Assembly: GCA_020850225.1 (NCBI GenBank)
Contig: JADZFD010000072.1
Location: forward strand, 1 to 64,000
DNA: 64,000 nt
Source: Saprospiraceae bacterium
GTDB taxonomy: Bacteria > Bacteroidota > Bacteroidia > Chitinophagales > Saprospiraceae
Reading direction: 5' to 3'
In this document: positions 76-9,749 of the stretch, piece by piece
Position numbering within the stretch: the first letter of the stretch is position 1
Layout of the letters: each line of letters opens with the position of its first letter
Position numbers and translations under genes: made by a program
The notes under the pieces: model-generated
Database searches by the model: none
The model's input: the letters and a program-made list of their open reading frames with translations, nothing else
Told to the model about the DNA's origin: nothing

Positions 76-300
76 TCATTTTGTTAAATCCAAATTATCC
101 AGAGGAGAAATTATATTGTTTTTCATAGGGTCGGTTATGTATGAGTAGATTGCGGTAGTTTTGATAGAATTATGACCCAATAATTCCTGTACACGCCTGG
201 ATATCCATACCATCCAGTATCAGATGCGTGGCATAGGTATGCCGTAGGGTATGTACTGTTGCATTTTCATCAACATCGTAATCATCCGATCAAATACCTA
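76..300 (-). pseudogene. tyrosine recombinase/integrase, C-terminal remnant (frameshifted)
   Basis: Read on the minus strand, the segment encodes the C-terminal catalytic part of a phage-type integrase. HTLRHTYATHL (the conserved HxxR box) is followed, after a one-base frame change near 195-203, by RRVQELLGHNSIKTTAIYSY, which holds the second histidine and the catalytic tyrosine region. The remnant then reads to a TGA at 76-78. Upstream of about 300 the frame meets a stop, and the homology ends just before the IS-like tip at 304. The N-terminal domain and the first catalytic arginine are missing, so the gene is dead by truncation and frameshift. The family assignment is secure from the motifs; which element it came from is unknown. 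Confidence 0.85.
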
Positions 301-904: not shown

Positions 905-912
905 TATATTTG
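905..912 (+). promoter_or_regulatory. Bacteroidota -7 promoter element for the HemC-like gene
   Basis: TATATTTG matches TAnnTTTG exactly and lies 33 bp upstream of the ATG at 946. A TTG inside the element (910) would open the same frame 12 codons earlier, but it cannot be the start if this is the promoter. No clear -33 TTG is seen. Confidence 0.65.
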
Positions 913-945: not shown

Positions 946-1749
946 ATGGACAATAAAATTAATATTTGTACATGCACTGAATCTGCATTTTTAAAAGACG
1001 AATTGGAAAGATTCAGGCAATTTATATCTCAGAATGCTGAGGACATGACCTTGTTTTCGTCGCAGTGCAAACAAGAAAATATAACTGATTATCTGCATAC
1101 AGCTAAAGCAAGTGCAGTCTTATTACCTTTACATGACTTACCTGTTCAATTGCCGGATGGGATTTCAATTGCTGCGTTAAGTCCGCGTTATGCACTAAGA
1201 GAAACACTGGTCATTAAATCTGCAAGTATTGATCTGAATCTGGAGTTCAGAGTTAAAAGAGGTGCTGCCGTATTTGTGTCCCTGGACAGGCAACGCTTTC
1301 AACTGTCTTCTATCAGACCAGACCTCATTTTTGTGGATTCAAAGGAGTTGGCAGATGCTTTTTTTTCAGATGTATCGACAGAAATCCCTGATGGTATGGA
1401 GTCTGTTTTACTCAATCCCAAGGAGTTTCTGCCTCAGCCGGGATACGGTGTGTTTGCTTGGTTAACTTTGACTGAAAATATCAGTCTGAGGAAGTTGCTA
1501 AAGACTTTTCATCATAAGGAAACTGCTGTTCTGACCAATATAGAGCGAAAAATCAGCAAGATCAATGGTGATCAGGACATAAACATATCCGGAGCCTATG
1601 CATGGACTGGACATGATAACAACATACATCTATACGCTGGTGCAGTCATTCATGGTGGTTGGGCATCCAAACGTATTTCCCAGACATCGGTAGTTAGTAT
1701 CTGCGAAAATCTGCTGGAAGAATTGAGTTCAACTACCATACATTCATAA
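946..1749 (+). CDS. Divergent hydroxymethylbilane synthase (HemC)-like protein lacking the cofactor cysteine
   Basis: The 267-residue protein follows the porphobilinogen deaminase fold order. HDLPVQLPDG (63-72) matches the HemC box S-M-K-D-[VL]-P and keeps the catalytic-type Asp (D64). SLDRQRFQLSSIRPDL (112-127) matches SLRRQ..L...RPDL. HHKETAVLTNIERK (189-202) and SGAYA (215-219) match the start of the third domain. However, the GGC loop that carries the dipyrromethane cofactor reads NGDQDINIS (207-215) with no cysteine, and the RGNV..R segment is replaced. A functional HMB synthase is therefore unlikely; a regulatory, scaffold or substrate-binding paralogue is possible. No other haem gene is in the window. 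The gene is followed after 19 bp by the exonuclease-like gene, so the two are probably cotranscribed. The start was chosen because the upstream TTG sits in the -7 box. Homology is judged by eye. Confidence 0.75.
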   Translation: MDNKINICTCTESAFLKDELERFRQFISQNAEDMTLFSSQCKQENITDYLHTAKASAVLLPLHDLPVQLPDGISIAALSPRYALRETLVIKSASIDLNLEFRVKRGAAVFVSLDRQRFQLSSIRPDLIFVDSKELADAFFSDVSTEIPDGMESVLLNPKEFLPQPGYGVFAWLTLTENISLRKLLKTFHHKETAVLTNIERKISKINGDQDINISGAYAWTGHDNNIHLYAGAVIHGGWASKRISQTSVVSICENLLEELSSTTIHS

Positions 1750-1768: not shown

Positions 1769-2362
1769 ATGTACCTGATTTTTGATTGTTCGGCCCTGGC
1801 CGGATATACCAATTATAAAGCCAATTTTACAGAAACGGAAGCTTGGCCTAGACTTATTCATATCAGCTGGATACTCCTCAACGGTGAATTTAAGCCTGTG
1901 GAAGATGCCGATTATATACCAATTCCAGAAGGATTTGTTATTGATATTAAGTCCAGGGAGAAGGCACATATTGATGAGGAAGATATAGAAAAAAAGAGTA
2001 AAAATCTAATGGATATTCTGGATTTGTTTGACAATGCTGTCGGTAAAGCAGATTATATCTTTGCACATAATCTCAATTATAATGAAAATATCCTGGGTGC
2101 TGAGTTTGTCAGAAATAAGAAAAGTATATCCATGTTTTCCAAAAAGAGATTTTGCCTGATGGAAGAAGGTACATATTTCTGCAAGATTCCGTCAAAAGGT
2201 GGAGGTTTTAAATTCCCGACCTTACCGGAATTACACGCATCCTGCTTTGGTCAGTCGTATGGCCCATCCGGCAATGCAAGAGCTGACGTTATAGCGGCAA
2301 CACGTTCATTCATAAAGCTCATGAAGACTCGCCAACTGGAAGATATCTTCGAGGAGGATTGA
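1769..2362 (+). CDS. DEDDh 3'-5' exonuclease-like protein with degenerate active site
   Basis: The 197-aa protein has the layout of the short Bacteroidota exonucleases related to DnaQ/ExoX: MYLIFD at the N-terminus, WPRLIHISW (26-34), FAHNLNYNENILGAEF (98-113), and a C-terminal GNARADVIAAT segment (168-178). In active relatives these read FDTET, AHN..FD, and HNA.AD. Here the second acidic residue of DxE is Ser8, the Asp after AHN is Asn105, and the catalytic His is Gly168; only D6 and D173 remain. Loss of two metal ligands and the general base predicts an inactive nuclease that may still bind nucleic acid. It sits 19 bp after the HemC-like gene, which is also missing a key residue. The family call is good; lack of activity is inferred from remembered family sequences. 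Confidence 0.75.
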   Translation: MYLIFDCSALAGYTNYKANFTETEAWPRLIHISWILLNGEFKPVEDADYIPIPEGFVIDIKSREKAHIDEEDIEKKSKNLMDILDLFDNAVGKADYIFAHNLNYNENILGAEFVRNKKSISMFSKKRFCLMEEGTYFCKIPSKGGGFKFPTLPELHASCFGQSYGPSGNARADVIAATRSFIKLMKTRQLEDIFEED

Positions 2363-2557: not shown

Positions 2558-5176
2558 ATGAGTACCCAAATACCCAATATTGAGCAATTGAATTATAAGT
2601 TTAAGGAACTCAAAGTCTATGCTTCAACGGAATGGCTGGCAGATAACAAGAAGAAGTACAGACAGGTTTTTGATACTAAAAAGACGACTTACGTTTACAT
2701 AGAATTATCCTTGATCAATAAAGCTTTTGACCAGGAAGCATGGGATATTGAGGGTGTTCTTAAATGCTATGAAATAAAAAACTCAAAAAAGAAAATATGT
2801 GAACTTCCTTTTAAAAAGAAGGTAAATAAACATGACCATATTCTGTATATCCGTGAAGGATGGGGCAATAAAAAAGAAGGGTCTTACTGGAAGAAAGGCA
2901 CCTATAGCTGGGAAGCATGGGTTGATGGCGTGCTGGTAGGTACCAAGTTTTTCTATATAGAAGATTTTGAAGTAAAAGGTGCTGGAGAAGAGGAGCCGCC
3001 TGTCAAACTCAGACACATCAGGTTATATGAAGGCCCCTATGATGAAGTTATTGAAGAGGAACGCAGGTATGTGACTGCATTTTCTATAAATGAAACCCGC
3101 TATATCTATGCCGAAATCCTTCTGGACAACCAGCTGTTGAATAACCCATGGAATTTAGAGGCATTCGTCCGGTTTTACAATGGTAGCAAAGATCTGAAAG
3201 GTCAGGTCAACAGATTGGAAAAAATTAATAAAGACCAGACGCAGATTATGATTTCTGCCGGATGGGGTTCCAATACAACCGGATCCTGGAATCAGGGACA
3301 GTACAGTATTGATTTGATCATTTTGGATCAGCTGATCGCCAGTGTGAGTTTTGAAGTAGGTGATGACTTTGTAAATGGAATACCAGTTTTACAGTTAGGA
3401 AACTCTCAGTTTATGATAAGTCAGAAAATGGATTATACGCTATATACTCAACAAGAGGTGGTAGAGCAGTTGAATAATCTTATAGGACTGGAGGATATTA
3501 AAAAACAGGTGCATGACCACTTCCGATATCTTGAATTTCTGAAGCTGAGAAAAGATAAGGGTTTCAGGGAAACAGACAGGATGAATCTCCATGCAGCTTT
3601 CAAAGGTAATCCAGGTACCGGTAAAACTACCGTAGCTAAAATGATGGCAGCCATTTATCACAAAATGGGTTTGTTGTCCAAAGGACATACAGTCGAGGTG
3701 GACAGGGGCGATCTTGTAGGTGAGTACATAGGCCAAACAGCACCGAAAACGAAGGAAATTATTGAGAAAGCACGCGGAGGTGTACTATTTATTGATGAAG
3801 CATATGCTCTGGCAAGAGCGAATGATGATAGTAAGGATTTTGGTAAGGAAGTTATCGAAATACTAATCAAGGAACTCTCAGGTGACAAAGGAGACCTGGC
3901 AGTCATTGTTGCCGGTTATCCGGGTGAGATGGACTTCTTCCTGAATTCCAATCCGGGACTTAAATCCAGATTCAAACATCAGTTTGAATTTTCAGACTTT
4001 TTACCGCAGGAATTATGCGATATTGCATTGCTTAAAGCCGGGGAAAAGGAAATTGTACTCAATGAGAAAAGTAGAACACTTCTCATGGAGATTATCACCC
4101 GCGCTTACAGAAACAAAAACAAGACCTTTGGCAACGGAAGGTATATTAACGATCTGTTGGATAAGATCAAGATGAATATGGCACTGCGTATTATGTCCAG
4201 AGAAAACCCTGCAAAACTCAGTAAAGCAGAATTGTCAACAATACTGGCAGCAGATATTCATGCATTGCAGTTGGATACAAAACGCAGATCTCCTGAATTG
4301 CACATCGATGAAGAAATGCTTCATACTGCTATGACGGAACTGAACGCAATGACGGGTATCGATAATATAAAAACACAAATCAATGAATTGGTAACAATCG
4401 TCAGATATACGCTGCGGTCAGAAAAAGACGTTTTGCATCAACATTCTTTCCATACGGTGTTGGTAGGCAATCCCGGCACCGGTAAAACGACTGTCGCCAG
4501 GTTGCTGGCAAGAATTTTTAAAGCACTGGGTTTACTCGAACGTGGTCATATAGTGGAAACAGACAGACAAGGTCTCGTCGCAGGGTTTGTCGGTCAGACG
4601 GCTATAAAAACAGCAGAAAAGGTAGATGAAGCGCTAGATGGAGTACTCTTTATTGACGAAGCACACGCATTAAGTTCGTATGGTAGTAACAATGACTTCG
4701 GAAATGAAGCCATTCAGATACTGCTCAAAAAAATGGAGGACTACCGTGGAAGGATTTTTGTAATCGTAGCCGGGTATATTGATAATATGGAACAGTTTCT
4801 GAAAGCCAATCCCGGCCTGAGCTCAAGATTTGACAAGACCATGGTATTTAAGGATTATACACCGCATGAACTCGTAGAGATAGCCAAAGCTTACATTCAA
4901 ACAGAGTCTTATAAAATATCCAAATCTGCGGATTCTGTTCTCAAAACTTATCTGACAGAAATGTATAAGACCCGGGACAAGCATTTTGGCAACGCAAGAG
5001 TTGCAAGGAGCATAGTGAATGAAGCCATCAGAAGACAAAATCTACGATTGAGCAGAATGGACCCTGAACAGATTACTGCGAAAATCAAACTTACACTGGA
5101 GGCATCCGATTTTCTGGATGTCATAAATAAAAAAAATGAGGAAGTACCTGTCAGAGCACGGATTGGTTTTAAGTAA
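2558..5176 (+). CDS. Double CbbX/SpoVK-type AAA+ ATPase with tandem N-terminal domains
   Basis: The 872-aa protein has two CbxX/CfqX-type AAA+ modules. The first has Walker A GNPGTGKT near 350 and Walker B GVLFIDEAYAL near 407. The second has GNPGTGKT near 636 and GVLFIDEAHAL near 694. Both contain the CbbX-like GxxxGxTxxKT segment after Walker A (YIGQTAPKT, FVGQTAIKT) and a conserved SRF arginine region. The first 300 residues hold two copies of a beta-rich domain: each has a Y[IV]Y.E start, a W.[IL]E motif, GWG (about residues 104 and 242), and a final F.[IV]...F. Related proteins remodel Rubisco (CbbX) or act in type VII secretion (EccA) and sporulation. Here no Rubisco or T7SS gene is nearby, so the substrate is unknown. 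It is probably a cytosolic hexameric remodelase whose N-domains recognise the client. Intact, with all nucleotide-binding residues present. Confidence 0.9.
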   Translation: MSTQIPNIEQLNYKFKELKVYASTEWLADNKKKYRQVFDTKKTTYVYIELSLINKAFDQEAWDIEGVLKCYEIKNSKKKICELPFKKKVNKHDHILYIREGWGNKKEGSYWKKGTYSWEAWVDGVLVGTKFFYIEDFEVKGAGEEEPPVKLRHIRLYEGPYDEVIEEERRYVTAFSINETRYIYAEILLDNQLLNNPWNLEAFVRFYNGSKDLKGQVNRLEKINKDQTQIMISAGWGSNTTGSWNQGQYSIDLIILDQLIASVSFEVGDDFVNGIPVLQLGNSQFMISQKMDYTLYTQQEVVEQLNNLIGLEDIKKQVHDHFRYLEFLKLRKDKGFRETDRMNLHAAFKGNPGTGKTTVAKMMAAIYHKMGLLSKGHTVEVDRGDLVGEYIGQTAPKTKEIIEKARGGVLFIDEAYALARANDDSKDFGKEVIEILIKELSGDKGDLAVIVAGYPGEMDFFLNSNPGLKSRFKHQFEFSDFLPQELCDIALLKAGEKEIVLNEKSRTLLMEIITRAYRNKNKTFGNGRYINDLLDKIKMNMALRIMSRENPAKLSKAELSTILAADIHALQLDTKRRSPELHIDEEMLHTAMTELNAMTGIDNIKTQINELVTIVRYTLRSEKDVLHQHSFHTVLVGNPGTGKTTVARLLARIFKALGLLERGHIVETDRQGLVAGFVGQTAIKTAEKVDEALDGVLFIDEAHALSSYGSNNDFGNEAIQILLKKMEDYRGRIFVIVAGYIDNMEQFLKANPGLSSRFDKTMVFKDYTPHELVEIAKAYIQTESYKISKSADSVLKTYLTEMYKTRDKHFGNARVARSIVNEAIRRQNLRLSRMDPEQITAKIKLTLEASDFLDVINKKNEEVPVRARIGFK

Positions 5177-8624: not shown

Positions 8625-9749
8625 ATGGATACATTAACAACGACCAACGTACAGACTAATACTGATACATTCCCGATTAACGGGACGGATTATGTAGAAT
8701 TTTATGTAGGCAATGCCAAGCAGGCAGCTTTATTTTATCAGCACTGTTTTGGCTTTGAACTGGTAGCTTACAAAGGACCTGAAACGGGTTCAAGAGAAGT
8801 GGTTTCCTATGTGCTTCAGCAAGGTAAAATCCGTTTTGTCATTACTTCCGCTTTCAGTCCTGAACATGAGATTCTGAAGCATGTGGACAAGCATGGAGAC
8901 GGGATTAAAGTTCTGGCTTTATGGGTAGACAACGCTGAAGAAGCTCATAGCAAGGCACTTGAAAGAGGCGCTACTTGTGCTATGGAACCTGTAAAACTGG
9001 AAGATGAGCATGGATACATTAAAATGGCAGCAATTAAAACATATGGCGAAACAATACATGCCCTGATTGAGCGTAGTAATTATAATGGTGTTTTTATGCC
9101 GGGTTATGTGGCTAAGAAAAGTACTGCCAAGATAAAACCGCTTGGATTTAAATATGTGGATCATTGTGTAGGTAATGTTGAATTGGGAGAAATGAACAAA
9201 TGGGTAAAATTCTACGAGGATGTACTGGGTTTCAAATTACTGATAACATTTGATGATGAAGATATTTCAACCGAGTATTCAGCACTGATGAGTAAGGTAG
9301 TAAGTAATGGCAACGGATATATCAAATTTCCTATCAACGAACCGGCTCAGGGAAAGAAAAAATCGCAGATAGAAGAATTTCTTGATTTTTACCGTGGACC
9401 AGGTGTCCAGCACGTTGCCATTGCTACAGATGATATTGTCTCAACTGTGGAAGGTCTTAGAGATAACGGTGTTGAATTTCTCTATGTACCGGAGACTTAT
9501 TATGAGGATATCCTGGAAAGAGTTGGTGGTATTAAGGAAGACCTGGAAGCATTGAAACGAAATAACATCCTGATTGACAGGGATGAAGAAGGGTATTTAC
9601 TCCAGATTTTTACAAAACCACTACAGGATAGACCCACTGTATTCTTTGAAATTATTCAGCGAAACGGCGCACGTTCATTCGGTAAAGGTAATTTCAAAGC
9701 TCTTTTCGAATCGATTGAACGCGAACAGGAATTGAGAGGTAACCTATAA
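8625..9749 (+). CDS. hpd: 4-hydroxyphenylpyruvate dioxygenase
   Basis: The 374-aa enzyme converts 4-hydroxyphenylpyruvate to homogentisate, the substrate of the preceding hmgA product. It is made of two VOC (vicinal oxygen chelate) modules. The iron ligands of the C-terminal module are visible in VDHCVGNV (first His), GPGVQHVAIATDD (second His) and VFFEIIQRNG (Glu). The C-terminal GKGNFKALFESIEREQ is the family's closing helix. Length is typical. It is the last gene of the operon and is followed by a strong terminator. Confidence 0.96.
   Translation: MDTLTTTNVQTNTDTFPINGTDYVEFYVGNAKQAALFYQHCFGFELVAYKGPETGSREVVSYVLQQGKIRFVITSAFSPEHEILKHVDKHGDGIKVLALWVDNAEEAHSKALERGATCAMEPVKLEDEHGYIKMAAIKTYGETIHALIERSNYNGVFMPGYVAKKSTAKIKPLGFKYVDHCVGNVELGEMNKWVKFYEDVLGFKLLITFDDEDISTEYSALMSKVVSNGNGYIKFPINEPAQGKKKSQIEEFLDFYRGPGVQHVAIATDDIVSTVEGLRDNGVEFLYVPETYYEDILERVGGIKEDLEALKRNNILIDRDEEGYLLQIFTKPLQDRPTVFFEIIQRNGARSFGKGNFKALFESIEREQELRGNL

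Follow-up and report, generated by a model that had tools for sequence, protein, structure and literature searches.

At positions 946-1749 of the window, i.e., the whole 64,000-nucleotide stretch of Saprospiraceae DNA analysed here, an open frame with an ATG start encodes a 267-amino-acid protein related to HemC, the hydroxymethylbilane synthase (HMBS). The window consists of ordinary chromosome and carries genes for the cell wall and for division at 15-29 kb. The features of the locus are the following:

905-912, forward strand: TATATTTG, tentatively a Bacteroidota -7 element (TAnnTTTG)
946-1749, forward strand: hemC descendant without active site (HMBS-fold pseudoenzyme), 267 aa, assigned on profile, fold and single-copy evidence
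1117-1161, forward strand: VLLPLHDLPVQLPDG, counterpart of the HSMKDLPT catalytic-Asp motif, by alignment
1276-1344, forward strand: VSLDRQRFQLSSIRPDLIFVDSK, counterpart of GTSSARRKAQL..RPD, after which the RGNVPTR segment is deleted, by alignment
1411-1548, forward strand: LNPKEFLPQPGYG...HHKETAVLTNIER, the most conserved segment, by alignment
1561-1593, forward strand: INGDQDINISG, the cofactor-Cys loop (GGC in HemC), Cys-free here, by alignment
1769-2362, forward strand: DEDDh (RNase_T-like) exonuclease-like gene, 197 aa, by synteny and motifs

Membership of the HMBS family, proposed in the initial annotation from the order of motifs, is borne out by both profile and structural comparisons. 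Pfam profile search returns PF01379 (E=1.5e-6, 28.3 bits, above the cut-off of 22.1), TIGR00212 hemC matches significantly (E=7.6e-11) with 41.6 bits, below its equivalog cut-off of 164, and phmmer against E. coli HMBS structures gives 7e-4. The AlphaFold (AF2) model, built with five relatives (pLDDT 86.8, pTM 0.80), displays the three-domain HMBS fold, and its best 32 Foldseek matches in the PDB are all HMBS, with E down to 8.7e-20 and TM of about 0.75. Type 2 periplasmic-binding-protein folds, such as LysR effector domains and LAO, share the architecture of domains 1-2 but are weaker Foldseek matches (E of about 1e-8, TM 0.3-0.45), and sequence together with the full-length fold assigns the protein to HMBS. 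The profile and fold matches thus indicate that the resemblance is real and spans the whole protein, and the risk that no HMBS match would be found did not materialise.

Compared with HemC as described by PF01379 and TIGR00212, the window protein retains the overall fold, the domain order, the ancestral genomic locus and the conserved PxE, PGxG, H and TNxER segments, whereas the cofactor Cys, the RGNV..R segment, most pocket Arg/Lys residues and the surrounding pathway are missing, and its score falls far under the hemC equivalog cut-off.

Loss of the active site

Cys242 of E. coli HMBS bears the dipyrromethane cofactor; the enzyme has a catalytic Asp and a cavity lined by arginines (PMC7242693). 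The window protein was aligned with 19 intact HemCs of Saprospiria, E. coli residue numbers being assigned by motif. Both losses noticed in the initial annotation are confirmed: the loop NGDQDINISG, which stands in place of the HMBS GGCxxPLG, is Cys-free, the four Cys of the protein (8, 10, 41 and 253) all lying away from it, and the RGNV..R segment is deleted. Equivalents of R11, S13, K55, K59, K83, R132, R149 and R155 are also missing, so that most of the pocket Arg/Lys set is gone while the catalytic Asp (D84 equivalent, in HDLP) is retained.

The missing Cys is common to the Cys-less relatives read in sequence (pseudo-HemCs), in which the Cys242 column holds a Cys in 0/23. A cofactor Cys displaced within the loop was considered and is ruled out by the lack of any consistent position among these 23 copies; in one of them, from genome G014, the loop does contain a Cys a few positions further downstream, but other active-site residues are missing. 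Seven positions are invariant in 23/23 copies, and within the segment at 1411-1548, E160, G168, H189, N198, E200 and R201 are invariant among 14 pseudo-HemCs. Some changes recur, the R132 equivalent being Q in 13/23 and the S81 equivalent P in 11/23. Among columns with a conservation of 95% or more in true HemC, taken as invariant, retention averaged across the 23 copies is 0.16 for cofactor and catalytic columns vs 0.47 for the others (p=2e-5). Active-site columns are lost preferentially, and fold positions are retained.

An active, unusual HMBS that would hold dipyrromethane without the Cys could be argued from the Asp of the window protein, but this residue persists in just 17% of pseudo-HemCs, R149, R155, K55, K59 and R11 are lost, and the genome has neither hemB to supply porphobilinogen nor hemE downstream; such an enzyme is scarcely credible.

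Descent of the gene and its surroundings

HMBS works in the tetrapyrrole pathway after hemB and before hemE, and neither gene is detected by profile searches in any of the ten genomes of the genus, that of the window included. These genome-wide profile tests covered hemB, hemC and hemE, hemD being judged from the locus. In comparison, hemB is present in 20 of 27 other Saprospiria members sampled. COX1 heme-copper oxidases are found in all 24 genomes tested, including 10/10 of the genus, the window's genome alone giving five matches. Because hemB and hemE are absent while heme-copper oxidases are kept, we infer that members of the genus are heme auxotrophs relying on uptake. The relatives that bear names are three MAGs, Bacteroidetes bacterium OLB9, Chitinophagales bacterium UW1SPNA035 and an assembly labelled Aureispira sp., together with Phaeodactylibacter xiamenensis, a member of class Saprospiria, order Saprospirales, whose HemC is intact.

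The gene had been taken for a repurposed paralogue, with a true hemC to be sought elsewhere in the genome. The genome that contains the window (3.25 Mb, 100% complete) has no second hemC-like gene, and the single copy occupies the locus of true hemC in relatives. In heme-making relatives, an ABC-lpxA-lpxC/fabZ-lpxD cluster is typically divergent from hemC, which is followed by hemD, and in several genera the exonuclease-like gene sits between hemC and hemD. The heme-less genus retains the pair formed by the hemC relic and the exonuclease-like gene, has lost hemD, and has lpx genes adjoining in most species; upstream of the relic in the window's genome, the flank has been swapped for a region that holds what is left of a broken tyrosine recombinase. 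This frameshifted remnant (76-289, reverse strand; DENATVHTLRHTYATHLILDGMDIQ ... RRVQELLGHNSIKTTAIYSYITDP), near the contig end, occupies the place of lpxD in relatives.

A different kind of paralogy, in which a single duplication before the Saprospiria radiation was followed by retention of either copy, makes a prediction about phylogeny. In the rpoB tree, lineages with a pseudo-HemC are scattered among sister lineages that have a true HemC: the starred sister pairs join the genus with G011, G014 with G012, and G010 with G029, the pair G026 with G034 being weak, and the starred branches cannot be reconciled with fewer than five changes of state. The HemC tree built from all columns under a simple model is compatible with one origin, a single pseudo clade not being rejected (p-AU 0.256), which is ascribed to long branches meeting in this tree. 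With shorter-branched copies, a mixture model and active-site columns left out, a single pseudo clade is rejected (p-AU 0.021), and G010 groups with G029 (support 97/94). An ancient duplication would further demand many reciprocal losses on the rpoB tree; both types of copy lie at the same locus, and none of the genomes examined carries a true and a pseudo copy of ancestral type together. It is, on this evidence, very unlikely. The paralogue reading is rejected on three grounds, the single copy, the locus and the trees: the window gene is a descendant of the ancestral hemC at its locus, and the active site was lost independently in at least five Saprospiria lineages.

The initial annotation had also reported a second degenerate enzyme gene next door, and this description holds. 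The protein encoded at 1769-2362 has FDCS for the DxE of DEDDh exonucleases, with HNLNYNE and NARAD where HNxxFD and HxxxD are expected, its catalytic residues being partly lost. The orthologue in G025 has these motifs intact (FDVE, HNYNFD, HNAAVD) and matches PF00929, a profile matched by 3/10 orthologues; the window copy has no match. A structure model of this neighbour is of low confidence (pLDDT 50) and was set aside. The degeneration of this gene predates heme loss, the degenerate form being already present in G011, which has an active HemC. As for whether the neighbour is common to relatives, the pair is kept in the genus, while G010, G014 and G036 have a pseudo-HemC without it. An obligate pair is rejected by these three genomes and by G013, which has the exonuclease-like gene without HemC. 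Each of the two is thus found on its own in some genomes, which makes a strict two-protein machine unlikely, and no partner gene is conserved across all pseudo-HemC loci.

Directly downstream, positions 2558-5176 encode a protein of 872 aa carrying two CbxX/SpoVK-type AAA+ domains, a 55% identical homologue of which adjoins the intact hemC, in convergent orientation, in the distant G022 (L085). An HPPD-like dioxygenase gene (8625-9749) lies near the hemC relic and has a homologue near hemC in G014 and G034; this closeness may be due to chance. The promoter first attributed to the hemC relic finds no support. Sigma-70-like sites occur in the window at chance number (8 found vs 7.8 expected), none of them upstream of 946-1749, and TAnnTTTG, the motif at 905-912, is just slightly above chance in the window.

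Retention without heme synthesis

The distribution of the gene was surveyed in 284 Saprospiria genomes, each at least 90% complete, with tallies made by hand from profile results. hemB is present in 187 and absent from 97, of which 57 have a pseudo-HemC profile match. Ten of these 57 carry a full-scoring, true-type HemC, and in them hemB is probably missing from the assembly. Among the 87 genomes without hemB and true hemC, 47, spread over 18 genera, have a degraded HemC (19 read as Cys-less in sequence, the rest called by profile score), and 40 have no HemC-like gene, from which it follows that any second function is dispensable in some lineages.

Further genomes with hemB have two HemC matches each. 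In G010 and G296, a Cys-less copy read at the lpx locus coexists with hemB and a second, better-scoring HemC; this second hemB/hemC set is divergent and located elsewhere, and is thus presumed foreign. A foreign hemB/hemC set has seemingly been re-acquired in L089, L090, L210, G113, G133, G147, G155, G169 and G296, with hemD adjoining it in L210, and the dead hemC is also kept in some such lineages. Other genomes show different states of the ancestral gene. G109 and G110 (L204, L205) lack the Cys, RGNV and hemB, with hemD adjoining and much of the active site kept, and look like an early stage of hemC degradation. In G013, hemC is cleanly deleted between lpxD and the exonuclease-like gene.

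The proposal that the frame is kept under selection is upheld by the relatives. None of the 23 Cys-less copies read has an interrupted frame, some of them starting at a codon other than ATG, and in the closest pair (46% identity), whose pS is near saturation, pN/pS is 0.44. More distant pairs give pN/pS of 0.6-0.8 with pS saturated. Counting against a retained function, pseudo-HemC evolves fast, and much faster than its exonuclease-like neighbour: identity to genus relatives is 20-46% for the HemC relic vs 61-81% for the neighbour, which is far better conserved.

This rapid divergence, together with the high pN/pS of distant pairs, is what would be expected of the main rival explanation, namely that hemC is slowly decaying after the loss of heme synthesis and that the copies are functionless snapshots. 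The 40/87 genomes already devoid of the gene, the clean deletion in G013 and the intermediates G109 and G110 are consistent with such a fading relic. However, a neutral simulation at the divergence of the closest pair predicts about 10 stops, against 23/23 open copies; fold positions are retained while active-site positions are lost, and hemB and hemE vanished without trace from the same genomes. Simple decay is therefore rather unlikely.

It has to be considered, too, that the HMBS pocket turned into a binder or sensor of heme or linear tetrapyrroles in heme scavengers. The hosts still need heme, as judged by COX1 in 24/24 genomes, and linear pyrrole chains are naturally held by HMBS (PMC7242693). 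Yet the pocket arginines and loops are lost, in ways that differ among relatives; the heme-needing G013, G021 and G035 are without such a gene, and pseudo-HemC is also kept in genomes with a second hemB and hemC. A role in tetrapyrrole handling seems improbable in view of these observations.

A proposed second function for the HMBS scaffold

The explanation that we favour, and regard as probable, is that a vertically inherited hemC lost its role along with heme synthesis and that the HMBS-fold pseudoenzyme is kept for a second function. In this Saprospiria lineage, which stopped heme synthesis, hemB, hemE and a true hemC are missing, and the gene left in what remains of the ancestral hemC locus has been stripped of the cofactor Cys and most catalytic residues, its frame and HMBS fold being maintained. 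Judging from its residues and the missing pathway, pseudo-HemC would no longer be able to build hydroxymethylbilane, and its scaffold would be kept for a function independent of the cofactor. The most likely mechanism would be the binding of a protein partner or regulator by a putative binding face in domains 2-3, with the retained P-x-E, PGxG, H and TNxER segments at its core.

This second function was probably already exercised by the active HemC of the ancestors, each loss of heme synthesis then leaving it as the sole reason for gene retention. Parallel retention, and retention beside another HemC, point to a function of the scaffold itself. That an old second function of HMBS exists in Saprospiria, exposed by the repeated loss of heme synthesis in HMBS-fold proteins without catalysis but under selection, and for which a foreign HemC is no substitute, is a proposition on which we hold the balance to be even.

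Pseudoenzymes in general are homologues that have lost catalysis and serve in regulation or as scaffolds. Pseudo-HemC is like them in that the fold is kept, catalytic residues are lost and the frame is constrained; it differs in that the housekeeping orthologue itself went dead, repeatedly, after pathway loss. No matching report of an HMBS pseudoenzyme or of Saprospiraceae heme auxotrophy was found in the limited library of literature searched. For annotation, such genes may pass as hemC, and hence as a sign of heme synthesis, in apparent heme auxotrophs. Textbooks present HMBS as a housekeeping enzyme, a single role being known for it in bacteria, and dead HMBS copies kept after many losses of heme synthesis would represent natural separation-of-function mutants, which would make a hidden second role of HMBS directly testable.
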